A DNA stretch of 55,752 bases from a candidate division WOR-1 bacterium RIFOXYB2_FULL_36_35 (GTDB taxonomy: Bacteria > Margulisbacteria > WOR-1 > XYC2-FULL-46-14 > XYC2-FULL-37-10): NCBI GenBank assembly GCA_001771505.1, contig MEUA01000016.1, forward strand, positions 1 to 55,752, read 5' to 3'. Both the position numbers and the translations under genes were made by a program. Shown piece after piece: positions 13,072 to 28,079 of the stretch (positions within the stretch are counted from its first letter, which is position 1; the number at the start of each line of letters is the position of its first letter). The notes under the pieces were generated by a model. The model saw nothing but the letters and a program-made list of their open reading frames with translations, was not told the DNA's origin and ran no database searches.

Positions 13072-13096
13072 AACAAAAACCTCCATTTAAAACGAA

Positions 13097-13117
13097 AAGT
13101 GGGCGAAAATCCCACTT
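13097..13117 (-). promoter_or_regulatory. Leader hairpin before nusA
   Basis: AAGTGGG and CCCACTT form a 7-bp stem with a 7-base loop in the nusA leader, followed on the minus strand by a T-rich run. A comparable GTGGG/CCCAC hairpin precedes the rimP-nusA operon in many Firmicutes. It could be an attenuator through which NusA adjusts its own level; this is inference. Confidence 0.5.
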
Positions 13118-13146
13118 CTATAATTAAGTACTATAGCTTTTGATTA

Positions 13147-13175
13147 ATTATAGCACTGTACAAAAATGTGTGCAA
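13147..13175 (-). promoter_or_regulatory. nusA operon promoter
   Basis: On the minus strand TTGCAC (13170-13175) and TATAAT (13147-13152) are separated by 17 bases. The expected transcription start is about 70 bases upstream of the nusA GTG, leaving room for the leader hairpin. Confidence 0.65.
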
Positions 13176-13200
13176 GAAGATTTTAATAAATTCAATTTTC

Positions 13201-13228
13201 TTGACACTTTCTTTTTGATCGATATAAT
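13201..13228 (+). promoter_or_regulatory. Promoter of the radical SAM/GH3 operon
   Basis: TTGACA at 13201-13206 and TATAAT at 13223-13228 are both perfect matches, 16 bases apart. The start would fall near 13235, about 33 bases before the first ATG. It is one of the strongest promoters in the window, so the operon is likely expressed without a dedicated activator. Confidence 0.75.
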
Positions 13229-13267
13229 AAAAGTGTGGAATATTGATAATAACGCTCAAACCTGATA

Positions 13268-14614
13268 ATGACAAAAAATAAATCAATAAAAATCACCCTT
13301 ATCTCTCCGCGAACGGGATTATATCGTTATAGAACAGGTGTATTTTCATTTTTTTTAAGATATGCCCCCATGAATTTAGTTACATTATCCTCTTTGATTC
13401 CAGAGGAAATTAATGCGACAGTCGAAATTCTCGATGAAAGCGTTGAAATAATCAAGAAGGAATCAATAATTGCGGATATCGTTGGATTAACCGGCATTAC
13501 TGGAGTATCAAAACGGGCTTATTCCTATGCTGATTACTTCCGTTCCAATGGTATTACTGTTGTAATGGGGGGACCGCATGCTACACTTATGCCCCAAGAA
13601 GCAAAAGAGCATGTAGATTCGGTAGTGGTAGGACATGCCTATGAAACATGGCCACAATTACTAAAGGATTTTATAAAAGGGGAATTAAAGGATTTTTATT
13701 ATCCCCCCCAGAAAATTGACTTTTCAAAAGTACCATCTCCTGACAAAAAATGCTTTTCCAACAAACCATTTATTACATTAAACAGTACTCAAGCCGTATT
13801 TGGCTGCCCTAATAATTGTGAATTTTGCGTTACGCCGGTTATTTGCAAGGGGAAATACGAACATCGCCCAATCGCAGATGTTGTTTATGAAGTATCTCAC
13901 ATGAAGGGGAAGTATATTACATTTCTTGACCCAAGCCCTGTTGAAAATCCCTTATATTCAATAAACCTCTATAAAGCGCTCAAACCATTAAAAAAACGAT
14001 GGGGAGGTTTAGCGACAACGCGCATCGTCGATAATAAGGAGTTACTAGACGCAATGGCAGAAAGCGGATGCTTCGGTTTGCTGATCGGCTTTGAAACATT
14101 ATCACAAGACAGCAATGTTGCCATGGGCAAGGGGTTTAATAGTGTAGATAAATATTATAAACTGGTTAAAGAACTTCATTCGCGAGGTATTGCTATAATG
14201 GGCTGTTTTGTGCATGGCTTGGAAACAGATAACAAAGATTGTTTTAAAAGAACCATGGACTTTGTATACAAAGCCAACATTGATCTTCCTCGTTTTACTA
14301 TATGCACTCCATTCCCGGGAACCCCTTTTTTCAACAGATTAAAAAAAGAAGCTAGGATTCTTACGGAAAACTGGACTCTTTATGATGCCCAACATGTGGT
14401 ATTCAAGCCGAAGGGGATGGCAGTTGAAGAGCTTGAAAACGGCCATCTATGGTGTTGGGAAAATGCTTATTCCTTAAAAAATATTTTAAAAAGATTGTCC
14501 TGTTCAAGGGCCTTTTTGGAATATACTTTACTGGCAAATTTAGGATATAGATTTTATGCAAGGGGACATCATCGTTTTAATTCAGCTTATATGGAAAATG
14601 ATTGGAAAACATGA
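13268..14614 (+). CDS. B12-binding-domain radical SAM protein (first copy)
   Basis: A 448-residue enzyme of the cobalamin-binding radical SAM class that includes BchE, HpnR and many methyltransferases. An N-terminal Rossmann-like B12 domain (about residues 8-145) shows VMGGPHATLMPQEAKEHVD and VVGHAYETW, though without the DxHxxG cobalamin ligand, as in many class members. The radical SAM core has C180-x3-C184-x2-C187 (CPNNCEFC) for the 4Fe-4S cluster, followed by HRPIADVVYEV. The C-terminus (after about residue 350) matches the tail seen in DUF4070-type relatives. It lacks a clear Shine-Dalgarno site. It leads a five-gene operon and is paralogous to the next gene. The substrate is unknown. 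Confidence 0.88.
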   Translation: MTKNKSIKITLISPRTGLYRYRTGVFSFFLRYAPMNLVTLSSLIPEEINATVEILDESVEIIKKESIIADIVGLTGITGVSKRAYSYADYFRSNGITVVMGGPHATLMPQEAKEHVDSVVVGHAYETWPQLLKDFIKGELKDFYYPPQKIDFSKVPSPDKKCFSNKPFITLNSTQAVFGCPNNCEFCVTPVICKGKYEHRPIADVVYEVSHMKGKYITFLDPSPVENPLYSINLYKALKPLKKRWGGLATTRIVDNKELLDAMAESGCFGLLIGFETLSQDSNVAMGKGFNSVDKYYKLVKELHSRGIAIMGCFVHGLETDNKDCFKRTMDFVYKANIDLPRFTICTPFPGTPFFNRLKKEARILTENWTLYDAQHVVFKPKGMAVEELENGHLWCWENAYSLKNILKRLSCSRAFLEYTLLANLGYRFYARGHHRFNSAYMENDWKT

Positions 14615-15939
14615 AAATCACATTTATTATGCCAGCTGTAGGCAAAAAAAAATCAGAAAGTTATGTCCGTTCATGGATAATGGAGCCATTAGGACTTGCA
14701 ATTTTATCTTCTTTAACCCCACCTGAAATAGAAAAGAAATTTTATGATGATCGGCTTGAAGAGATACCTTATGATGAATCGACAGATCTTGTAGCAATTA
14801 ATGCTGAAACTTATACGGCTAAAAGAGCCTATCAAATTGCTGCAAAATATAAACAAAGAAATGTGCCTGTTGTAATGGGAGGATATCATCCCACTCTTAT
14901 GCCGGAAGAGGCGGCAGAACATGTAGATGCCATAGTCATTGGAGAAGCTGAACAAATATGGGAAATACTGTTAAATGATTTTAAAAATAAACAACTTAAG
15001 AAATTTTATAAATCCTCTACAAAAACGAGTTTAAACAATATTTTTCCTGACCGAAGTTTATTTAAGGATAAAAAGTATTTCCCTGTCACCCTGATTGAAA
15101 CAGGACGAGGATGCAAGTTTAATTGTGAGTTCTGTTCAATAAATGCTTTTTACAAACGTACCTACTCAACTCGGCCAATTGATAATATTATTGATGAAAT
15201 AAAACGCACCAGGGCAAAAAGGATTTTTTTTGTGGACGATAACATAGTCAATGATAGAAATTTTGCTTTTGAACTGTTTAAGAGGCTAATTCCATTGAAA
15301 ATCAATTGGATAAGTCAAGCGTCAATGCATATCCACAATGATGACCAACTACTTGCCCTGATGAAAAAAAGCGGCTGTCGCGGAGTATTAATTGGGTTTG
15401 AATCATTAAATAAAGAAAATTTGGAAGTAATGGGAAAACATGTCAATAATGTCCAAAACGGTTATGAAAAAGTTGTAGCCCAATTTCATAAGCACAAAAT
15501 GGCGATCTACGGAACTTTTATATTCGGATATAATGACACTCCCGATTCTTTTAAGAAAGCATATGATTTCGCTTTAAAAAACAAACTTTTTTATGCCGCT
15601 TTTAATCACTTGGTCCCCTTCCCCGGAACAAGCCTTTATGAAAAATTAAAGAGAGAAGGCAAATTATTGTTTAATAAATGGTGGCTTGATTCCGGTTGCT
15701 ATTTTGGCAATATCTATTTTAAACCAAAAAATCTTACTCCAGAAAAACTTGAACAATTATGTTATAAATACCGTTACAAGTTTTTCAGTTTAGCATCAAT
15801 TATTAAAAGAAGTTTTAATTTTAGGGTTTACTGGCAAGATATAATTTTCCTTTTCATTTATTTTGCTAACAATTTATTTGCTAACCGAGAGACAGATAGC
15901 AGGCATTTTTTGCCTTTTGGAGACGCTAATGACCAATAA
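14611..15939 (+). CDS. B12-binding-domain radical SAM protein (second copy)
   Basis: A 442-residue paralogue of the preceding gene with the same layout: an N-terminal B12-type domain (VVMGGYHPTLMPEEAAEHVD, IVIGEAEQIWE) and a radical SAM core with C168-x3-C172-x2-C175 (CKFNCEFC), followed by YSTRPIDNIIDEI and FFVDDNIV. The FFVDDN strand is typical of the BchE/HpnR-like group. I start at the ATG at 14611, which overlaps the previous stop as ATGA; a TTG 9 bases upstream is an alternative. Two adjacent B12 radical SAM enzymes suggest two successive radical steps (C-methylation, ring formation or rearrangement) on one product. Confidence 0.88.
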   Translation: MKITFIMPAVGKKKSESYVRSWIMEPLGLAILSSLTPPEIEKKFYDDRLEEIPYDESTDLVAINAETYTAKRAYQIAAKYKQRNVPVVMGGYHPTLMPEEAAEHVDAIVIGEAEQIWEILLNDFKNKQLKKFYKSSTKTSLNNIFPDRSLFKDKKYFPVTLIETGRGCKFNCEFCSINAFYKRTYSTRPIDNIIDEIKRTRAKRIFFVDDNIVNDRNFAFELFKRLIPLKINWISQASMHIHNDDQLLALMKKSGCRGVLIGFESLNKENLEVMGKHVNNVQNGYEKVVAQFHKHKMAIYGTFIFGYNDTPDSFKKAYDFALKNKLFYAAFNHLVPFPGTSLYEKLKREGKLLFNKWWLDSGCYFGNIYFKPKNLTPEKLEQLCYKYRYKFFSLASIIKRSFNFRVYWQDIIFLFIYFANNLFANRETDSRHFLPFGDANDQ

Positions 15940-16669
15940 TAAAACAATAATAACCATAAAAAAATGTGCAAATATATCATTTCAAAAAAAAGATGAGATA
16001 TTTGCTCTCCATTTGCAATATTTTGACAATACTACATTCGAAAAGTTCAATAAAGATTTTACGGAAAAACAATGGTGCATTATTATCCAAGATATTTACA
16101 ATAAAATTGTAGGATACTCAACCATTCAACTTATTTTTGATAAGATTTTATCTCTTCCCGTTCTGGTTCTATTTAGCGGGGATACATTGGTTTCGAAAGA
16201 ATATTGGAATACAAATGCTTTAGTCATAGGATTTTCTAATTTTATAGAATACATAAGCCAACTATTTCCAGATCATAAAAAATACTGGCTATTAATTACC
16301 AAAGGATACAGAACATACCGCTTTCTGCCTCTATATTTCAAACAATACTATCCGGCTTATAACATAGAAACACCAAAAGAAATTAGTATTTTAATGAATA
16401 GTATATGCACAAAAAAATTTGGTGATAGATACGATTCTCAGAAAGGATTGGTTTTGTCCAATGATAAAAATGATTTTTTAAGGCCGGAGATGGCAGTTGT
16501 CCCTCCGGGCAAGAAAAAGGATCCCAATGTTTGCTACTTTTTAAGACGCAATCCCAACTATCACAAAGGTGATGAATTAGTTTGTCTAACAAGTATCGAA
16601 AAAGAAAATATTATTAATCGATTATTTTATAGATACATAAAAAAATATCCCGTCAGCATAGATAAGTAA
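15929..16669 (+). CDS. Acyltransferase-like protein of unknown specificity
   Basis: A 246-residue protein with a pattern reminiscent of the GNAT fold: an N-terminal FQKKDEIFALHLQYFDN segment, a central strand with IVGYSTIQLIF and the helix-rich end with YRTYRFLPLYFKQYYP. I cannot identify an acetyl-CoA-binding signature with confidence. The ATG at 15929 is preferred because GGAG lies 6 bases upstream; an in-frame ATG at 15863 would place 22 residues inside the previous gene. It overlaps that gene by 11 bases and is followed after 1 base by the GH3-like gene, so it is part of the same translationally coupled operon. Confidence 0.6.
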   Translation: MTNNKTIITIKKCANISFQKKDEIFALHLQYFDNTTFEKFNKDFTEKQWCIIIQDIYNKIVGYSTIQLIFDKILSLPVLVLFSGDTLVSKEYWNTNALVIGFSNFIEYISQLFPDHKKYWLLITKGYRTYRFLPLYFKQYYPAYNIETPKEISILMNSICTKKFGDRYDSQKGLVLSNDKNDFLRPEMAVVPPGKKKDPNVCYFLRRNPNYHKGDELVCLTSIEKENIINRLFYRYIKKYPVSIDK

Positions 16670-16670
16670 C

Positions 16671-18314
16671 ATGGCTGTTTATTATTTCTTTGTAAATATT
16701 ATTATCTTACTCTCCTGTCTATATGAATGGAGCCTGTTTTTTTTATTTAGCAGATCAGCAAAACAAGTCCAACAGAAATTATTAAAAAACATCTTAAGCA
16801 CAAACACCAAAACAATTTATGGGCAAAAATACAATTTCAGTAAAATAAAGTCATATAAAGAATTTACAATGCTCCCTTTAACGGAATACCAGGATTATTT
16901 CGAATACATTTCTAAAATACGTCAAGGAGATGGTTTTGTTTTAACTTCAAACCCAATTCAAACGTTAATACCAACAAGCGGAACAACACAAGGAAGCAAA
17001 CTTATTCCATTTAACAAAAAAATAAAAAACCGATTTCAAAAAGGACTTAATGTCTGGCTGTTTAATTCATATTTGAGATGTCCAGCTATTTTAACAGGTC
17101 AACAGTATTGGTCAATGAGTCCTATAACAAAAGCTTCAAATGCTAAAAGCGAAAAAATATCTGTCGGGTTTACTGAAGATTCTTCATATTTTGGAGCTGT
17201 CAAGAAATACTTCATACAAAAGCTTTTTGCAACTCCCGTTATGCTGCAAAAAATTAGCGATCCTATTGCGCATGAATATCTTACCTTGCTTTTTATGATT
17301 TGTGCGAAGGACTTGTCTTTGATATCAATTTGGAGCCCGACTTTTCTTATAGTAAAGCTAGAAAAACTGTTATTTTATTATGATCAAATTATAAAAGACA
17401 TTGCGCAAGGAACCATAAGCCACAAAATTAAGATTGATCCTGTAATCCGTAAACTACTATTTTCCAAGCTCAAACCAAACCCGAAAAGAGCTAAGGAGCT
17501 GTCTGCAATAAATATTTCAGATAAAAATAACTGGCAAAAAATTTGGCCAAAACTCAAAATTATAAGTTGCTGGACAGATGGCAGTTCAGCCACATTTGCT
17601 TATAAATTAAAGGGCTTGTTTCCAAAAGTCAAAATCGAGGAAAAAGGGCTTATCTCAACTGAAGGAATAGTAACAATTCCATGGTTTACAAAACAATTAA
17701 AACCAGTTGCTTATCGTTCCCATTTTTTTGAATTTCAAGATATTGAAAACAAAAAAATCTATCCATTATGGGAAATTGTAAGAAACAAAAGATATACAGT
17801 TATTTTAACAACAGATGGCGGGCTATATCGATACAAATTACACGATACGGTAGAGGTGACTGATTTTATAGGGAGAATTCCATCTCTTAAGTTTATTGGT
17901 CGTGAAACAGCCATTGTTGATATGGTTGGAGAAAAAGTTTGTGAGGAACATATTCAGGAAATTTTCAACCGTTTAACTCACTATGATTTTATTTTTAAGC
18001 TGGTTAGCCCATCTATAAAAGAAGGCAAACTTGCCTATACTTTGTTTCTTGAGCCTAAAAACTACCACAATTATAATTTTGCCCATTTAAAGCAGGTTTT
18101 TGAAAATGAAATGAGATCTAATTTTTATTATTTACATGCTCAAAACATGTCACAACTTGAGCCTCTTCGCATATTTTTAATTAATCATGGGTCAGGACTT
18201 ACTACATACATAAAAAATCACCTTAGTCGAGGGAAAAAAGAAGGTGATATAAAATATCAATTATTGACCAGCGACTTATCATGGGATAAGATTTTTAAAG
18301 GCCAATATGTTTGA
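16671..18314 (+). CDS. GH3-family acyl-adenylate ligase
   Basis: A 547-residue member of the GH3 family, best known from plants, where it adenylates carboxylic acids such as auxin or jasmonate and joins them to amino acids. The P-loop-like motif TSGTTQGSKLIPF is at about residues 102-114. A middle motif STEGIVTIPW follows, then YRYKLHDTVEVTDF and LKFIGRE, matching the plant GDVVKV and FIRR region. An N-terminal hydrophobic segment (residues 4-27) could anchor it to the membrane. It starts 1 base after the preceding stop and has no Shine-Dalgarno site. In this operon it probably activates a carboxylate made or modified by the radical SAM enzymes, for amide or ester formation. Substrate and acceptor are unknown. 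Confidence 0.85.
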   Translation: MAVYYFFVNIIILLSCLYEWSLFFLFSRSAKQVQQKLLKNILSTNTKTIYGQKYNFSKIKSYKEFTMLPLTEYQDYFEYISKIRQGDGFVLTSNPIQTLIPTSGTTQGSKLIPFNKKIKNRFQKGLNVWLFNSYLRCPAILTGQQYWSMSPITKASNAKSEKISVGFTEDSSYFGAVKKYFIQKLFATPVMLQKISDPIAHEYLTLLFMICAKDLSLISIWSPTFLIVKLEKLLFYYDQIIKDIAQGTISHKIKIDPVIRKLLFSKLKPNPKRAKELSAINISDKNNWQKIWPKLKIISCWTDGSSATFAYKLKGLFPKVKIEEKGLISTEGIVTIPWFTKQLKPVAYRSHFFEFQDIENKKIYPLWEIVRNKRYTVILTTDGGLYRYKLHDTVEVTDFIGRIPSLKFIGRETAIVDMVGEKVCEEHIQEIFNRLTHYDFIFKLVSPSIKEGKLAYTLFLEPKNYHNYNFAHLKQVFENEMRSNFYYLHAQNMSQLEPLRIFLINHGSGLTTYIKNHLSRGKKEGDIKYQLLTSDLSWDKIFKGQYV

Positions 18315-19425
18315 AAATAATGACAAAACAGATCATTACATAATTGAACCAGCAAAAGAAAGTGATGGGTTTGAACTTTGCAATATATATGAAGAAGAAT
18401 CAGCTCCAGGCAACTTAGAAATAACTTTTACTAGACGAGATAACGCATATCTTTCGATGATGCAGGAAGGAAAGATTGTTGAAGTCATCGTCTGCCGCAG
18501 GCGAAACAGTTTGGAGATTGTCGGATTTGGCGCCTATGCTATAAATGAATATTTTTTACACGGAACAAAAGAACAAGTAGCTTATCTTTTTGGAATGAGA
18601 TGTCGCAAAAAATACCGCAATAAAGCAGGGAAAGCAATTCCTTTAATCTATAGCTATATAAAAAAATCTCTGATGACTCACAAAGTTAAATTTATATTTA
18701 CATCTATACTTGATGATAATATTAAGGCTCAAAAATTTTTAACAAGGTCACATAAAGGCCTGCCAAATTACAAGTTATTAGAGAAATTTGAAGTATATTC
18801 AATCAAGACTACTAAAAAAATATTGAATGTCCCAAAAAATATTGTCTTGGTATCTGCCCTTGATTTTGATGAAAATAAATTTTATGAGTTTGCAAATGAA
18901 GTTGGCAGAAAATACCAATTATTCCCTGACATAGAAGAAGTCGCCCCAACTCTAAAAAACTTTCTAAATGATTGTTATTTATTAATAGATAAAACTACGG
19001 GTGAACTATTAGCTTGTGGTTTTTGTTGGGATCAACGTTCATTTAAACAATATATTTTACAAGGATACAAGGGCCTTTATAAAGGGTTTTATTTCTTCTC
19101 TAAAATTCTAACATTACTTGGCTATCCAAACCTTCCCGTGCCAGGATCTATATTAAATTATTTCACATTATCTTTTTGGCTTGTAAAAGACAATAATTCA
19201 AATTATTTGAAATGGTTTATTGATTTGCTTTCCAAGGAAAAGAACTCTTATGATTTTTTTGCCTTGGGTATTGGAAGTTCCCACCCATTAAAAAATACAA
19301 TTAAAAAACTGCCTCATTGGATATATAAAAGTAATATTTATTCGGTTTCCTGGAAAGATTATCCCAAAGAATCTATTTTGCTAAATAACCCCAACCAAAT
19401 ATATATTGAATGCGGGAGACTCTAA
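18307..19425 (+). CDS. GNAT-like N-acyltransferase
   Basis: A 372-residue protein whose first half fits a GNAT fold. YIIEPAKESDGFELCNIYEE at the start is typical of GNAT N-termini, GFGAYAI is a beta-4-like strand, and YLFGMRCRKKYRNKAGKAIPLI matches the acetyl-CoA-binding V-x-x-x-x-R-x-x-G region. The second half (residues 190-372) may be a second, divergent GNAT-like domain. It overlaps the GH3-like gene by 8 bases, with AAAGG upstream as a ribosome site. As the last gene of the operon it may transfer an acyl or amino-acyl group to the product. The role is inferred. Confidence 0.7.
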   Translation: MFENNDKTDHYIIEPAKESDGFELCNIYEEESAPGNLEITFTRRDNAYLSMMQEGKIVEVIVCRRRNSLEIVGFGAYAINEYFLHGTKEQVAYLFGMRCRKKYRNKAGKAIPLIYSYIKKSLMTHKVKFIFTSILDDNIKAQKFLTRSHKGLPNYKLLEKFEVYSIKTTKKILNVPKNIVLVSALDFDENKFYEFANEVGRKYQLFPDIEEVAPTLKNFLNDCYLLIDKTTGELLACGFCWDQRSFKQYILQGYKGLYKGFYFFSKILTLLGYPNLPVPGSILNYFTLSFWLVKDNNSNYLKWFIDLLSKEKNSYDFFALGIGSSHPLKNTIKKLPHWIYKSNIYSVSWKDYPKESILLNNPNQIYIECGRL

Positions 19426-19483
19426 TTGATAAAAATATTATTGATATTACCATCGGAATTTAAATATCTGCTTGCGAGGCAAA

Positions 19484-20848
19484 TCAGAAAGCAGCAAGCT
19501 CCATTTCATAAAAATCAAAAACAGAATCTCCGGTTAATTGAGCATACAGTTTAAGCCTTAAGTCAGAATCCAATAATTGAAAAAACATACCACGATCAGT
19601 ATCAGGCAAAAATCTAAACATTAGCCCCAATATACGATTATTTTCACCTGCAAACAACTCATTAAAAACTGCTTTATCTGTTTTATACGATACAGGAATA
19701 GATTCCCAAAAACATTGGAAATCTTCTAAATCCAAAACCGCGATTAAATCAATTATGCGGTTCTCTTCAAACAAAGGCCTCATCAAAAGCCATTGCATTC
19801 CTCCCTGTCCCCCTCTAAAAAGTTGCATACGCTCCAGTTTGGATAATAAGTTAAACAATCTTATACAATCCTTATTACTTCTGGTATTTGAAAGTAATTT
19901 CCCCCGTTGCTCAAAAGACATAAGATGATATACCCGTTTTAATCTATTATCATCTCTTATATCCCAGACATCTAAAAACTCAGTACTGTCCAAAGCAAAT
20001 TCAGAATATTTTAAAAAAGACTTACAGTTAATACCCATTCTTTGAATGCGAACCAAATCTCTTTTCAAAGAAAAAAAACCTTCTTTGCCCAACTGTTCCA
20101 GTTGTTCATAAGACAAGGATACAAAAAGCTTTTTAAGGTTATCATCCCCCAAACCCCACACTCTATCCAATAAATTCATTGAATGTAGTCTTTCCACAAA
20201 AAGACTAATATCCTCGTCATTTAAAACTTCAACTATATTTTTTATTATACGAACATCCTCTATAGCAGCTAAACCCTTTTCGACAACAAACATTGAGTCG
20301 ATCAATTCACGCTTCTCCATATCAGTCAACAAAGAATACAACAATCTACGCCCTTCGGTTTCAATAGATAAAAAGAGATTTCTCTTTGCCAATATATGCT
20401 CGCCTAAAAATAAATAGAGCTTTAATAAATCTTGGCCTGAGAGAATAATTTCCTCATTTTCAAAATATATTCCGGCATCTTCACATATTACATCAAAGGA
20501 GATATCAACTGAATCAGGCAACTTATCATTCCTCATTCGAAACCTCTTTAGCAGCAATACATCCGCAGCCTCTCTTTCTTTTTCCAGGAAATCAAGATCT
20601 TCCTTTCTTATGCGATTTGCATAAATTGCCGTAGGAAGGTGTTCCCCCTGCAATAAATTAGATATACCAAACAAATCAATTCCTTTTCTTCTCTTTAATA
20701 TTTCCCCACCCTGCCCCTTCACCAACTTTGTACTTCTATTTGTTAATACAATATCCTCAGAAAAACGTTTTCTAACCTTAACAACAAATGAGCTTGTAAA
20801 ATCTAATACATTAAATTTTATTGTTTTTATTCCTTGTAGGCTATTCAT
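19484..20848 (-). CDS. Unknown helical-repeat protein, 454 residues
   Basis: I do not recognise the family. From about residue 170 onward it shows a run of regularly spaced amphipathic helices (for example LKKLFVSLSYEQLEQL and RVYHLMSFEQRGKLLS), with a spacing like MgtE-N or FliG-type superhelical repeats. It has no signal peptide or membrane helix. It overlaps the upstream 522-residue gene by 4 bases (ATGA), so the two are expected to be translated together and to act together. The 3' end converges on the GNAT-like gene after 58 bases with no strong terminator. Confidence 0.6.
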   Translation of the reverse strand: MNSLQGIKTIKFNVLDFTSSFVVKVRKRFSEDIVLTNRSTKLVKGQGGEILKRRKGIDLFGISNLLQGEHLPTAIYANRIRKEDLDFLEKEREAADVLLLKRFRMRNDKLPDSVDISFDVICEDAGIYFENEEIILSGQDLLKLYLFLGEHILAKRNLFLSIETEGRRLLYSLLTDMEKRELIDSMFVVEKGLAAIEDVRIIKNIVEVLNDEDISLFVERLHSMNLLDRVWGLGDDNLKKLFVSLSYEQLEQLGKEGFFSLKRDLVRIQRMGINCKSFLKYSEFALDSTEFLDVWDIRDDNRLKRVYHLMSFEQRGKLLSNTRSNKDCIRLFNLLSKLERMQLFRGGQGGMQWLLMRPLFEENRIIDLIAVLDLEDFQCFWESIPVSYKTDKAVFNELFAGENNRILGLMFRFLPDTDRGMFFQLLDSDLRLKLYAQLTGDSVFDFYEMELAAF

Positions 20849-22413
20849 CTGTTCCTCCTATGCAATAAAGGAATATATAAAATATGCCCGGGCGTTATAA
20901 GGGCAGGAATGCCAAGTATATCATTATCATCTAATCCATAAACAGGTAAATGCTCTCTATCCTTATAAAAAGACCATCCGGAATCATAAGCTTCAACAAA
21001 ACATCCTTTCCCTCGTAAAGAAAGAGAATGCAAATAATTATAATATGATACCATATGGAATCTTTCTTCTCCAAAAAGATATGTAGGGAGGTTGGGATAT
21101 CCATAATTATGAACAAAACCATATCCTCCAACTTTTGTCCTATCCCAAATCGATTTAAATAAACGCGTTGAATCTGGATATAAACAAAGAAGATCATGAC
21201 ACACTACAACAGAAGCTTGAGGAACTTTTGAACTAGTAAAAACATCCTCTTTAGAAAAACTGACGCCCGGCGGCACAGCCGAAAGATCCAAACTTATATC
21301 AACAGCCCATAATCTATTTACATCTTCATCTTTTAAAAACTTAAACTTTTTTCCCATCTTAATAATATCTTTTATCATCTGAACTCTTCCACTTGGAATA
21401 TCAAGAAGAAGAGGAGATTTATCTTCTTTTGCCAAAAAAAACCTTACATAATCAAGAAAATTCTTCCCATTATATTTAGGGACTTTACTTAAGTAGACAT
21501 CCAAATCACAATTCGCAGGCCACCTATTATGTTCGTCTAAAACTTTTGCCAAGGCATAAGAGGCAAGATAAGCATTAGCGTCAATCCCTTTCTGAATATC
21601 TATTTGCTTATCACAACTTAAAGCCTTTAGAAAACTTTCAAGATCTTCAAACAGACACTGCTTATCAGGATCAGAAAAACCCGTAATTTCATTTGAAGAT
21701 GAATTTACAAGAAAAGTATAAGCCTGAAACCTAAAATGCTCCAAAGAATAGCAAAAAACAATTACTGTTCCGCTTTGAGGGTTTGACAACAAAAAACTGA
21801 AGTTCTGTTTTTTTGTAAAAAAGTCCTCCCCTCCTATCAAATAAAAATGATTTGCCCCTTTCAAAACCTTGCCATTAAAATTTTTGAGCAAATGTATATT
21901 ACCATAAGAAGCCATAAACCCCTCAAGCTCATCTTCCACCCCAAATTGCCTTATAAAAAATTCAACATCTTTTTTTAGTATATTTTTTGTAAACCTTCCC
22001 AATGATTCATTCCCCACCAAAAACGGCGGAATTTGATGTTCGGAATTACTAACTGACGCCAAAACCGAGGGCGTATCTATTTTTAAAACATCCTTTTGAG
22101 AAAAAAGAATGTTAGAATCTAAGGATTCAGCTTCGTATAAATGAGTATCCCTTTTTCCGTAAAAAATATCATCTAAAATGGCTTTCTCATGAACAGTAAC
22201 AATCATCTCTTTTTTACTGTCTGGAAATTCATATTTTAAAAGCTGTAAACTTTCGGATACATTAGAAACCATGCTAACACCTCTTGAAACAGGGAGATTG
22301 CCAGATCTCTGTTTTCTATCCAAAGAAGAAAGCCTTTTTAATGGAATAGTGTAGCTACATAAATATCCGGAGTTGATATATTCTGCAAGCTGAAATGATG
22401 ATGAGATTCTCAT
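20845..22413 (-). CDS. Unknown protein with a methyltransferase-like C-terminal domain, 522 residues
   Basis: The N-terminal two thirds are unrecognised. From about residue 330 the pattern resembles a Rossmann-fold SAM-dependent methyltransferase: a strand followed by a Gly-containing turn (PLLLDIPSGRVQMIKDII), then LWAVDISLDLSAV with an acidic residue ending strand 2, SKEDVF, and a motif-IV-like strand ASVVVCHDLLCLYPDS followed by GGYGFVHNYG. The classical GxGxG loop is not intact, so it may be a degenerate or pseudo-enzyme. GAGGAAGG lies 14 bases upstream of the ATG. It is divergent from the glcD-like gene and overlaps the next gene by 4 bases. Confidence 0.6.
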   Translation of the reverse strand: MRISSSFQLAEYINSGYLCSYTIPLKRLSSLDRKQRSGNLPVSRGVSMVSNVSESLQLLKYEFPDSKKEMIVTVHEKAILDDIFYGKRDTHLYEAESLDSNILFSQKDVLKIDTPSVLASVSNSEHQIPPFLVGNESLGRFTKNILKKDVEFFIRQFGVEDELEGFMASYGNIHLLKNFNGKVLKGANHFYLIGGEDFFTKKQNFSFLLSNPQSGTVIVFCYSLEHFRFQAYTFLVNSSSNEITGFSDPDKQCLFEDLESFLKALSCDKQIDIQKGIDANAYLASYALAKVLDEHNRWPANCDLDVYLSKVPKYNGKNFLDYVRFFLAKEDKSPLLLDIPSGRVQMIKDIIKMGKKFKFLKDEDVNRLWAVDISLDLSAVPPGVSFSKEDVFTSSKVPQASVVVCHDLLCLYPDSTRLFKSIWDRTKVGGYGFVHNYGYPNLPTYLFGEERFHMVSYYNYLHSLSLRGKGCFVEAYDSGWSFYKDREHLPVYGLDDNDILGIPALITPGHILYIPLLHRRNR

Positions 22414-22475
22414 ATATATGATATCGGCCTTCCTCTAAAAAAATTTCTTATAAAAACTACATACAAAAGTCATGC

Positions 22476-22481
22476 TATAAT
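22476..22481 (+). promoter_or_regulatory. -10 box of the glcD-like gene, leaderless arrangement
   Basis: TATAAT ends only 6 bases before the ATG at 22488. No Shine-Dalgarno site is present. Transcription would start at or within one or two bases of the start codon. Confidence 0.45.
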
Positions 22482-22487
22482 TTTTAA

Positions 22488-23972: not shown

Positions 23973-26900
23973 ATGGATATAAACAAACCTCGAGGAATAA
24001 ATGGTAGTCTTTGGGATTCTTCTCCTTACAAAGGAAGTACTTCTTTTAAGCTTAACTTCGACAGAAAACCACCTTTAAATCCTGAGATAAGGGGAAAAAT
24101 TTTAGCTTTCACTGATAAGGCAATTTCTATGTTTAATCCTGTCTTTGACATAGATCTCACTATTATCAATTTTGCTTTGGGGTTTGAATCGGCAGAAAAA
24201 GCGCTCGCCAAAATTGGAAATTTTCTTAATAATAATGATTATTTTGTAAGATCAAGAGCATTAGAAGGGATAAAAAGAATAACCAGAAGAGAGGGAATAT
24301 TAATTGGAGCACAACCAATTATTACTTCACTGTCATGTTTATCAGAACATCATTCAGAACCATTCATAAAATTTGCAGCAACAGAACTTCTTGCGGAAAA
24401 TGGCATTATTTATATAGACAATTTAACTCCCCCCGGATATAGGCACTCCTTATCAACCTCGCATGAAATAGAACTTGCAAAAATCTTATGCAAATTTGGG
24501 AAGTTGGTTCTTGCAAAAGAATTATTATATGAACTCTTTTTCAGCTCATTAGCTATCCATCAATTAGATGCTGCATTAGCCTTGGCAGAAATAGGAGAAA
24601 TAGGTACAAAGGAAATAAGAAAAACTATCCAATTACACAAAGAAGATCCTGATCATTTTTGCAAAATAAAAATAGCTGAGCTTTTAGCTTTAAGCCAAGA
24701 AAAAGAACAGGCTGAAGATATCCTTTTAAAAATTATTAATACCCCTAATCGTCAATCTGTTCATAGACTTGGCGCACTAGAAGCTTTATCCAAAATAGGG
24801 AGTGAAAAAATATTTAGTTATCTATTTGATCATGAAGAATTGTTTGCCCTTAATGAATCACTTGCAGGAAGCTTAATAAGTAATTTCATAGAAAACTATG
24901 ATTGCCGCGCATTTGTAACCCCCACCTTACAGCATCATTTTATGCCAGCTAATATAGGACAGGCAGCTAAAATAGCAGGCGTAATTCAAACTATTGTTCC
25001 AAGCAGGCAATCTAGAAAACCAAAAGTCAGTAGAAGTTTTACAAACAGAGGAATACATCTAGGGCTAAGAGGCGGGGGCTCACAGGGAGGAGGTGATTTT
25101 GATCGGATTGAAACTCTACCTATTACTGTATTAAGGGGAGAAAGGGTCAATCAAACAGCCACTGCAAAAATAGCAAGTAGAGGAGAAGTTGCAATAAATA
25201 AATCAACTTCACATCAAAGCAGGAATGTTGTAATAGTTCTTGATCCAAGGCTTTTAAAAGAGACGACCAGGGAAAATTTATCGGTTTTAGTGGGAATGTT
25301 AGCTCAAAAAGCCCTTGTGCAAAAAGACAGAGTTATGCTTGTTATAGGAGACCATACTTATATTCCCCTATCCGCAAACCCCAGCCATTTAAATAAAATA
25401 ATAGGCTCAATTTTATCTTTTCAAGAAAAAGAAGGGAATATTCCGCTTGTTTCCATGGCAAGACAAAATCTTGTCAGAAAAAATCTTTCTCCAGGATCAA
25501 AATTAGTGCTAGTTTCCAGGTTTAATAACACAACCCAAAAAGATTTAGCTTTAATGGCAAGTATCCCGGGAAGTGAATTTGAACCTATAGTTGTTGATTC
25601 TTCTGAAAGGAGAAAACACCAAAATCTAAAATTATCTACGGGGAAATATTGCTTGAAACTTTCTGATGAAGCACGCATGCTTTGGGATCTTCATTATTTC
25701 AGATTATTTTTAGGAAATTTGTCATATCGGATGCTACAAAGAGTCTATCTGCCGGATAAAATTATTGACGAAAAATTACTGGCATGTAATGTTGACAAAC
25801 AATTAAAATCACCAATAACAGACAAAACAGCTGAAACAATCCAAGAACTTTCAGGAAAAGGGAGAATAGTAGAAGAGGAGGCTTCCGTAAGAAAAACACC
25901 TCCTCATTTTATAAATGAATTATTGAAAATAACTCTTGCCATAACAGATGATGAAGCCAGAAAAGAATCCTTTAAAGCTCTGGTAATACTAGCAAAATTA
26001 AATGGATGGAAAGAGGTTTTTGATTTTATAAATGATAGAATAAAACAGGCGTTAAACTCAGATAGTTTGCATGAGAGAGAGAAAAAAAGCCTGGAAAAAG
26101 CAAGCGTCGAATTGGAAAGAAAAGATATGCCGGAAGCTTTATTGATAACCGAAGAAGAGAGAGGCCAAATACTAGAAGACTATTCTTCCCTTTTATCCGC
26201 AAAGTTTGAACCTCATACAGTTGCCTATGTATTGTTATCAAAAATGCTATCAGATAAAACAAATATATACCAAAGAGATATAAATAAATTCCTTTGTAGC
26301 ACATTAGATAAGCATGGTGTTGTTTTGATGGGAAAGGGAAGCATGTACATCAAACTTAGATCTTACGGACCTCTTGATACATCAATAGAAGAAATATGTT
26401 TTCTTGCATTTGGCCCATCAAATAAAACATTAGAAGAGCTGGCAGAGATAGAGGCTTTTACAGGTTATCCTAAAATCAAAGAATATAGACCGACACTTCA
26501 ACCATCTTTGCTGCAAAGAATAAAAAGAAAGCTAACTTCCTTCAGAACTTTAATCTGGGGCGGATTAATTGCTTCATTAATGTTCATTTTTGGATATTTT
26601 ATTCAAGAATCAAGTCACAAGTCAGAAGAGCTAGGAAATAATGACACCTCTGATTTAAATTCAGGGGCCGCAGACAGTAACGCAGAAAAACAGAATCTTT
26701 TAACTTTAAACCCACCACCTGCAGGTAGAAATGCCTATTTAATGGGAAGTATAGGAGGCAAAGTCAATCCTTCAACGTGCGGTTATTCCCCAATTCCTGA
26801 AATTACGGCAAAATCCCTTGAAGAAGAAGGGGAAAGCTTTATATCAGCAAGAGCCACAAATGGTATAAAGTTAGGTTCCCCACTTCATATAACAGGAGGA

Positions 26901-28079
26901 AGAATTATTTCTTCAACCAAAGAGACAATCACATATCAAGTTTCAGATACCCCTCCCCCTGCAATCGCACATATTAAACTTTCTGATTTTAGAAAAGAAG
27001 CCCCTTACATATATGGGAAAGAATTATATGACACTTTAACTCAGCCTGTCTTAACTTTAGATGAATTAGAAGAAAGTTTTCCAGAAGTAGCAAGAGACTG
27101 GAAAGAATTAAGCCCTAAGTTAGAAGAAATGCCTCTTTTAACTGCTATTGAAACGATACGACAAAACATAGGAAAGATGTTTAGCTATCATCATTATAAA
27201 TCTTTTCAGCAAAAACTTAAGTTAGGTTTTATTCAAACGCTCTCCCATTATGGTTATTGCGGAGGGGGGGCATTATACCTAAAAACAGCTATTGATTATA
27301 GGGGAGGCGTCTGCGCAGAAATGGCAGAGATAGGAAACAATTCTTTAAGAATAGAAAAGATCCCTACCATTAAGATAAACGGTTTTTATGTCCCCGAAGA
27401 TGGGGTTGTAACAAGTTTAGGTTCACACGCCTATATAGCAATCCCATTGCCACTTGAAATGGGAAAATTCTATGGGTTGCCGGTTGAATTTTCTGTGGCT
27501 GCTTTTACCGATCCTAATCCTTCGCAGCAACATTTTATCTCTTCAAATAGTAGAAATAAATTATCAAAAACTCTTCGAGGTACTGCTCTATCACTTGCGT
27601 TTTTGGTCTCTGCAGCATATATTTACAGATTCCTGGCAGCTAAGTTGATTCCATATAAAAAAAGCAAAATTGGAGCATCAGAAAAACCATCCCCCAAAGA
27701 CACTAAAGATGATAAAACATCACAAAAAAGAAAAGAGGAACTCGAAGTGCCGGAAATTATGCGTCCTGTGGTAAAAGCTTGGCAGCGGGCCACTCCCGGC
27801 AAGCGAAGGGAAATAGCATATTCTTTGGAAACTCTTTACATGATGCTCGGGAATAACCAAACAATAAGGAATCGCATACTTCAAAACCCTCAAAGAGTAG
27901 TTGACGGGAGTAAATATTTTGCCGGTTCAAGTATTGATTATAATAGTGATATTCCACCATATATGGATCAAATATTATATAGATATACTACCGTCAAACA
28001 AGGACATTACACAACTTTAAAATGGAGGAAACTTTTTTCTCTTAACCCTACTACGAGTGAAAAGGGATCTCTTTTTTAA
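23973..28079 (+). CDS. Multidomain membrane protein: HEAT-like, DUF58/VWA-like and transglutaminase-like
   Basis: A 1368-residue protein. Residues 60-330 form HEAT-like helical repeats (DYFVRSRALEGIKRI, RLGALEALSKIG). About 365-560 resemble DUF58/VWA: a Gly-rich loop, then RGERVNQTATAKIASRGEVA and NVVIVLDPRLL. The metal-binding DxSxS motif is absent. A membrane helix at about 859-879 (WGGLIASLMFIFGYF) is followed by a transglutaminase-like domain with catalytic Cys1114 (GGVCAEMA) and His1152 (GSHAYIA). A second membrane helix lies near 1203-1225, then a basic tail. Separate DUF58 and transglutaminase genes usually occur together with a MoxR ATPase; here they look fused and MoxR is not nearby. 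AGGA lies 6 bases upstream of the ATG. Its 3' end overlaps the PflX-like gene by 29 bases, tail to tail. Confidence 0.75.
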   Translation: MDINKPRGINGSLWDSSPYKGSTSFKLNFDRKPPLNPEIRGKILAFTDKAISMFNPVFDIDLTIINFALGFESAEKALAKIGNFLNNNDYFVRSRALEGIKRITRREGILIGAQPIITSLSCLSEHHSEPFIKFAATELLAENGIIYIDNLTPPGYRHSLSTSHEIELAKILCKFGKLVLAKELLYELFFSSLAIHQLDAALALAEIGEIGTKEIRKTIQLHKEDPDHFCKIKIAELLALSQEKEQAEDILLKIINTPNRQSVHRLGALEALSKIGSEKIFSYLFDHEELFALNESLAGSLISNFIENYDCRAFVTPTLQHHFMPANIGQAAKIAGVIQTIVPSRQSRKPKVSRSFTNRGIHLGLRGGGSQGGGDFDRIETLPITVLRGERVNQTATAKIASRGEVAINKSTSHQSRNVVIVLDPRLLKETTRENLSVLVGMLAQKALVQKDRVMLVIGDHTYIPLSANPSHLNKIIGSILSFQEKEGNIPLVSMARQNLVRKNLSPGSKLVLVSRFNNTTQKDLALMASIPGSEFEPIVVDSSERRKHQNLKLSTGKYCLKLSDEARMLWDLHYFRLFLGNLSYRMLQRVYLPDKIIDEKLLACNVDKQLKSPITDKTAETIQELSGKGRIVEEEASVRKTPPHFINELLKITLAITDDEARKESFKALVILAKLNGWKEVFDFINDRIKQALNSDSLHEREKKSLEKASVELERKDMPEALLITEEERGQILEDYSSLLSAKFEPHTVAYVLLSKMLSDKTNIYQRDINKFLCSTLDKHGVVLMGKGSMYIKLRSYGPLDTSIEEICFLAFGPSNKTLEELAEIEAFTGYPKIKEYRPTLQPSLLQRIKRKLTSFRTLIWGGLIASLMFIFGYFIQESSHKSEELGNNDTSDLNSGAADSNAEKQNLLTLNPPPAGRNAYLMGSIGGKVNPSTCGYSPIPEITAKSLEEEGESFISARATNGIKLGSPLHITGGRIISSTKETITYQVSDTPPPAIAHIKLSDFRKEAPYIYGKELYDTLTQPVLTLDELEESFPEVARDWKELSPKLEEMPLLTAIETIRQNIGKMFSYHHYKSFQQKLKLGFIQTLSHYGYCGGGALYLKTAIDYRGGVCAEMAEIGNNSLRIEKIPTIKINGFYVPEDGVVTSLGSHAYIAIPLPLEMGKFYGLPVEFSVAAFTDPNPSQQHFISSNSRNKLSKTLRGTALSLAFLVSAAYIYRFLAAKLIPYKKSKIGASEKPSPKDTKDDKTSQKRKEELEVPEIMRPVVKAWQRATPGKRREIAYSLETLYMMLGNNQTIRNRILQNPQRVVDGSKYFAGSSIDYNSDIPPYMDQILYRYTTVKQGHYTTLKWRKLFSLNPTTSEKGSLF

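Follow-up and report, generated by a model that had tools for sequence, protein, structure and literature searches.

The window analysed here, positions 1 to 55,752 of contig MEUA01000016.1 from a candidate division WOR-1 bacterium of the Saganbacteria/Margulisbacteria group, contains an operon of five genes which encode two B12-binding-domain radical S-adenosylmethionine (rSAM) proteins (g1 and g2), a putative GNAT-fold protein of an unnamed family (g3), a GH3-family ligase (g4) and, last, a putative tandem-GNAT protein (g5). With a probability of roughly 0.55, we take this to be a mobile, horizontally acquired operon making an acyl-amide-type small molecule or lipid. Linkage of its gene families is seen in five operons, which represent four deep lineages, three of them proteobacterial, and the homology of g3, GH3 and g5 is significant across all five operon sets. 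The cassette brings known enzyme families together in a new combination and apparently represents an undescribed GH3-dependent acyl-amide biosynthesis; in line with the original prediction, whose author knew of no pathway with this gene set, no paper on it was found in the open-access literature, most subscription journals lying outside the scope of the search. The same prediction had the product built by two radical steps followed by acid activation and conjugation. The reality of the cassette and the proposed role of the GH3 enzyme have held up, whereas the radical steps as the core of the pathway have not.

Linkage of the gene families in distant bacteria

Within the phylum, a second operon with all five gene families was found in one genome (G007, JABMQY01), whose contig JABMQY010000125 is recorded as Candidatus Saganbacteria and which belongs to the same taxonomic order as the window genome. 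The GH3 gene was detected in 2 of 74 phylum genomes, and g3 and g5 in 2 of 57 each; the carriers were always the window genome and G007, with every gene at a single locus. Both genomes of the window's own family (96-100% complete) lack the five genes. The G007 operon has the order g3, a gene for a 219-amino-acid membrane protein, rSAM C, rSAM D, g5, rSAM A, rSAM B and GH3, in which A and B are the orthologues of g1 and g2, and C and D are additional. Genes for an FAD oxidoreductase, a GNAT, an LPG_synthase_C protein and UDP-sugar dehydrogenase-like, epimerase-like and glycosyltransferase-like proteins lie 3' of this operon (locus L003, 10416-15733), possibly forming a linked surface-polymer locus.

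Relatives outside the phylum were sought by searching the proteins of plasmid records; some of these records are as large as chromosomes and have probably been mislabelled as plasmids. Genes for g3 and GH3 occurred together in Citrobacter portucalensis (on a 159-kb plasmid), in two Acinetobacter baumannii records and in Burkholderia arboris. The Citrobacter cluster reads g3, GH3, rSAM A, rSAM B, g5, rSAM C, rSAM D, PAP2 phosphatase and a hypothetical gene, which is not a counterpart of the 219-residue Saganbacteria membrane protein; another A-type rSAM gene and a fatty-acid desaturase gene follow on the opposite strand. It thus has orthologues of all four Saganbacteria rSAMs. The Acinetobacter locus (L013, 9022-17799) reads EmrA-like, EmrB-like, g3, GH3, TolC-like, g5 and SurE-like, the EmrA, EmrB and TolC labels being tentative readings of the translated sequences; the overlaps from g3 through GH3 and the TolC-like gene to g5 are 4, 4 and 8 bases. 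Junctions in Citrobacter are likewise tight and often overlapping. The Burkholderia trio shares one neighbourhood in the order PAP2-desaturase fusion (minus strand), g3, g5, two minus-strand genes, desaturase, GH3, Rieske oxygenase and a further desaturase, so that three fatty-acid desaturases, one of them in the PAP2 fusion, accompany the Rieske oxygenase. Its g5 (371 amino acids) matches the g5 profile at 4.5e-29.

The original prediction treated the genes as a unit, and they are not scattered in relatives: linkage was found in G007, Citrobacter, Acinetobacter and Burkholderia. Its two radical steps fared differently, as no rSAM gene lies near the Acinetobacter or the Burkholderia trio. The rSAMs are therefore lineage-specific tailoring enzymes that stand outside the core. 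The Acinetobacter version has no desaturase or Rieske-type enzyme either, and carries the exporter-type genes instead.

Viral contigs yielded no match, and neither did E. coli genomes when they were searched for the Citrobacter cluster, be it in near or in distant mode. A genome-wide scan with g4 alone returned no relative, and one with the g3 alignment returned only the Saganbacteria contig; such scan patterns are too specific, and the true distribution is therefore wider than the five operons. Distant homologues of g3 (about 24% identity) occur in several Azospirillum records, among them A. brasilense (L010). In the Azospirillum locus looked at, genes for a reductase-like protein and an ABC transporter lie near the g3-like gene and no GH3 gene was seen, which indicates that the g3 family is also used outside the GH3 cassette.

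Gene layout and site of insertion

The predicted promoter and the five plus-strand genes, with the short overlaps and the one-base gap described originally, were all recovered at the positions claimed (Table 1). The sequence TTGACA-N16-TATAAT occurs exactly once in the whole window, against 0.01 expected from shuffled sequences, and lies 39 bases before the ATG of g1. Taking the ATG codons at 14611 (g2) and 15929 (g3) as starts, the g1/g2, g2/g3 and g4/g5 junctions overlap by 4, 11 and 8 bases and a single base separates g3 from g4; the open reading frame list also offers TTG starts at 14602 for g2 and 15863 for g3.

Table 1. Coordinates of the operon, its predicted promoter and the insertion in which it lies
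Feature	Position	Strand	Remarks
Lineage-specific insertion	13087..22487		9.4 kb; holds the operon and two minus-strand genes; flanked by nusA and a glcD-like gene
Predicted sigma-70-type promoter, TTGACA-N16-TATAAT	13201..13228	+	exact 12/12 consensus match
g1, B12-binding-domain rSAM, clade A	13268..14614	+	448 amino acids; C-x3-C-x2-C cluster motif
g2, B12-binding-domain rSAM, clade B	14611..15939	+	442 amino acids; ATG start
g3, putative GNAT-fold protein, unnamed family	15929..16669	+	246 amino acids; ATG start
g4, GH3-family ligase, putative acyl-adenylate-forming amide synthetase type	16671..18314	+	547 amino acids
g5, putative tandem-GNAT protein	18307..19425	+	372 amino acids
Minus-strand gene	19484-20848	-	454 amino acids; weak MgtE_N match
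Minus-strand gene	20845-22413	-	522 amino acids; no Pfam match; C-terminal half methyltransferase-like by eye

The window operon was gained horizontally as an insertion. In four related genomes (G003, G005, G006 and G007) nusA lies directly next to the glcD-like gene, in divergent orientation and at a distance of 127-219 bp, and the promoter-like boxes of these relatives on the nusA and glcD sides (e.g. GTGCAGTGGTATAAT, ATGCTATAATT) apparently persist, as judged by eye, at both edges of the insertion. Its GC content is 33.1%, compared with 35.8% for the remaining window. Neither minus-strand gene was found in any other of 57 phylum genomes. No repeat longer than 10 bases was detected at the edges, and there is no integrase among the island genes. 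Further downstream, the window encodes a 1368-amino-acid protein (23973-28079, plus strand) with a weak HEAT-repeat match and, by eye, a central transmembrane segment.

The GH3 ligase

Assignment of g4 to the GH3 superfamily is supported by its N-terminal domain (PF03321), which scores 196.9 bits against a cut-off of 23.6, and by three nucleotide motifs; the central domain also exceeds its cut-off (62.5 against 23.6 bits), whereas the C-terminal domain falls slightly under it (20.6 against 23.6 bits). The motifs TSGTTQGSK, STEG and GLYRYKLHD, judged against those given in PMC12493201, are conserved or nearly so in the five operon copies. A g4 profile aligns almost over its full length with plant JAR1 (E=4e-34). 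Because of the three motifs and this near end-to-end match, g4 would be expected to adenylate an acid and then to form an amide. In a small tree the five operon GH3s make up one side of a branch (support 95/96) that separates them from Streptomyces and Bacteroidota GH3s. This clade, together with the rSAM orthologue pairs described below, implies that the cassette, or at least part of it, was transferred as a unit.

The GH3 enzymes on the other side of the branch have neighbourhoods of their own. On a Streptomyces plasmid (L072, 5917-7587) the GH3 gene lies amid polyketide-synthase-type genes and genes for a P450, an aminotransferase and an F420 oxidoreductase. The Bacteroidota GH3s, a separate clade with a possible fatty-acid link, adjoin pfkA in two genera (Parabacteroides and Bacteroides, L074/L075), with rnc and fabF close by, and one of the loci has an adjacent PAP2 gene. 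Membership of g4 in the lyso-ornithine lipid synthetase family OlsH (NF052613) was considered and rejected, the score being 33.9 bits against a cut-off of 620.

The radical SAM proteins

Pfam places both g1 (PF04055, 55.0 bits; PF02310, 32.7 bits) and g2 (PF04055, 60.5 bits; PF02310, 44.0 bits) above the cut-offs, and the order of a B12-binding and then a radical SAM domain, together with invariant CxxxCxxC cysteines, marks them as class B rSAMs. Each is 49% identical to its G007 orthologue. The rSAM tree, also small, unites g1, Sagan_a, Cit_1 and Cit_5 in group A (support 99/95), and g2 falls in a B/C/D group with support of 100/100; within the latter the C pair (Sagan_c and Cit_3, 96/98) and the D pair (Sagan_d and Cit_4, 100/100) are orthologues across phyla. 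In eight related genomes the best rSAMs outside the operons reach at most 154 bits, compared with 650-730 for the operon copies; in those genomes the g1 and g2 types are therefore operon-specific.

Neither protein could be assigned to HpnJ, BchE or the ladderane-associated rSAM family TIGR04072: the scores, in this order, were 79.4, 49.0 and 44.4 bits for g1 and 97.1, 84.2 and 80.8 bits for g2, far under the equivalog cut-offs of 577.6, 481.35 and 360. The best PDB profile match of the rSAMs is AprD4, whose reaction differs from methylation. Plasmids of Paraclostridium, Treponema, Synechocystis and Aureibacter carry solitary rSAM homologues, for which the annotations show no GH3 or trio partner, and a locus in Acetoanaerobium has the rSAM alone. 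No assignment to an anti-phage system resulted from the PADLOC models, the sole match being a weak one of the rSAMs to the candidate PDC-M51A.

The putative GNAT-fold proteins

The Pfam results bear out the family names originally given to the two rSAMs and the GH3 enzyme. The label "acyltransferase-like" for g3 and g5 proved insecure from sequence because g5 has a weak GNAT match and g3 has none in Pfam; it is favoured by fold models of low confidence. For g5, Acetyltransf_1 (PF00583) scored 16.0 bits against a cut-off of 20.7, and it matched all four g5 members scanned weakly (best E=4e-4). For g3 there was no Pfam match above cut-off and no NCBIfam match, and a profile comparison gave AAC(2') at E=0.0025. 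AlphaFold models, built from two-sequence alignments, had a predicted confidence (pLDDT) of 63 for g3 and 59 for g5. Foldseek related the g3 model to the AAC(2')/NatD GNATs (probability 1.00, about half of the protein aligned) and the g5 model best to tandem or two-domain GNATs (E about 1e-9). A GNAT fold is thus likely for both proteins, while the low TM-scores (0.3-0.4) make structural details unusable. Five-way alignments show that g3 keeps the motifs SGDT, YW-x-L, KG-x2-TY and G-x-E-L-x-C, of which SGDT, YW-x-L and G-x-E-L-x-C are invariant among the five copies, and that g5 has WDQ-x3-KQ in four of five copies and a conserved C-terminal acidic residue.

Proposed pathway and alternative explanations

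In the envisaged pathway the GH3 enzyme would adenylate a carboxylic acid, which is probably fatty or lipid-like, and may join this acid with an amine or an amino acid, by analogy with OlsH in the formation of N-acyl-ornithine. The role in acid activation and conjugation that had been predicted fits both the intact nucleotide motifs and this precedent (PMC12493201). The g3 and g5 proteins might serve to add one more acyl group to the conjugate, or to transfer one on it, or they might provide the amine component; this is guesswork, as are the order of the steps, the final product and its use. In low-oxygen hosts the oxygen-sensitive rSAMs g1 and g2 could alter an unactivated chain carbon by methylation, ring formation or dehydrogenation; predicted anaerobes occur in the group to which the window belongs, alongside some members which may use oxygen (PMC6349859). 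In Burkholderia, oxygen-dependent desaturases and the Rieske oxygenase would take the place of the rSAMs, and the five operons point to exchange of the two kinds of module. A lipid-type acid is suggested as the g4 substrate because desaturases and PAP2 domains occur in the Citrobacter and Burkholderia clusters.

Several observations weigh against this interpretation. The window operon itself has no desaturase, phosphatase or carrier protein, so that the lipid link comes from the neighbours in other hosts; plant GH3s also act on non-lipid acids, and the Streptomyces GH3 adjoins a polyketide synthase. Only five operons are at hand, from limited genome collections, and g5 and especially g3 are placed among the GNATs mainly through low-confidence models.

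The product could instead be a structural membrane aminolipid, like ornithine lipids and not secreted, in which the GH3 enzyme N-acylates an amino acid and a GNAT carries out the O-acyl step. OlsH, described in 2025, acts together with an O-acyltransferase, and this was the sole bacterial GH3 pathway of shown function that we found, in agreement with the remark in the original prediction that these enzymes are rarely studied in bacteria. The precedent speaks for such a lipid, as do the PAP2 and desaturase genes of two clusters and the absence of an exporter from the window and Saganbacteria operons. Since, however, g4 remains so far below the OlsH cut-off, none of the five window genes is an OlsI-type alpha/beta-hydrolase, and the EmrA/EmrB-type genes upstream of the Acinetobacter trio and the TolC-type gene within it suggest export, we consider an aminolipid fairly unlikely. 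A non-lipid natural product, for which the GH3 enzyme would link an amine with an aromatic or polyketide-like acid and the rSAMs would methylate this scaffold, would agree with the substrates of plant GH3s (jasmonate, auxins and benzoates), with the polyketide-type cluster around the Streptomyces GH3 and with the names of the NCBIfam models, class B rSAMs being common in natural-product methylation. But no polyketide, nonribosomal peptide, aromatic or terpene synthase was seen in the five clusters and the redox neighbours are mostly fatty-acid desaturases, which makes such a product improbable.

Hopanoid or bacteriochlorophyll modification had been named at the outset as a known pathway to be compared. 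HpnJ, BchE and the ladderane-associated rSAM are indeed among the distant best models of g1 and g2, but with 44-97 bits against cut-offs of 360-578, and with the HpnR model also far under its cut-off, a known hopanoid, bacteriochlorophyll or ladderane cluster is contradicted and must be regarded as very improbable. No squalene-cyclase or porphyrin gene was noticed in the window operon and its four relatives, and to our knowledge GH3 enzymes and GNATs are not part of these pathways. Chance adjacency of unrelated metabolic genes might be suspected in a small operon that few genomes of the phylum are known to carry, yet it is contradicted by five linked operons in four deep lineages, overlapping gene ends and orthologous rSAMs, and its likelihood is practically negligible.

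If the acyl-amide interpretation is extended to all hosts, the trio of g3, GH3 and tandem GNAT would represent an unrecognised mobile class of acyl-amide biosynthesis across phyla, including A. baumannii, with oxygen-dependent desaturase/Rieske and B12 rSAM modules exchangeable according to the oxygen regime of the host; this we hold to be a little short of an even chance. If true, the two versions would provide a clean natural test of oxygen-dependent versus oxygen-independent lipid C-H chemistry. The operons link a GH3 clade of their own with a set of rSAMs and with two unnamed families of putative GNAT fold, in hosts that range from an uncultivated lineage sibling to the Cyanobacteria to an Enterobacteriaceae plasmid and A. 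baumannii. In tractable Acinetobacter the trio is small and lies beside exporter-type genes, so that its product can be searched for directly.

Comparison with known systems

The class B rSAMs HpnJ, BchE, TIGR04072 and PhpK share with g1 and g2 the order of the B12-binding and radical SAM domains and the CxxxCxxC motif, whereas the g1 and g2 clades are, in the genomes searched, confined to the operons described here, and the named cut-offs are not reached. By fold search with its low-confidence model, g5 resembles the tandem GNATs 2WPX (clavulanic acid pathway) and MAB_4324 in having two GNAT-like halves; it differs from them in its low identity (8-14%) and, by alignment, in a poorly conserved coenzyme A-binding loop. 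The EmrAB-like pair of Acinetobacter might correspond to AmfAB or AmfCD, but the operons of these are reported to have no outer-membrane gene (PMC10812440), in contrast to the Acinetobacter trio locus with its TolC-type (outer-membrane) gene.

The plant acyl-acid amido synthetases (JAR1/AtGH3.11 and GH3.12) are like g4 in the near full-length profile match and in the three nucleotide motifs, but they are distant in sequence, and the window enzyme belongs to a bacterial biosynthetic operon without a hormone context. In OlsH/OlsI of Singulisphaera acidiphila (PMC12493201), too, a bacterial GH3 gene lies beside an acyltransferase-type gene and motif I is TSGTTQG. The difference, apart from the score of g4 far under the OlsH cut-off, lies in the partners, which are GNAT-fold proteins and rSAMs and not OlsI and OlsG. 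OlsH is a GH3 enzyme whose amide-forming reaction with a free acid and with ATP has been demonstrated: it converts free fatty acid, ATP and ornithine to N-acyl ornithine (PMC12493201).

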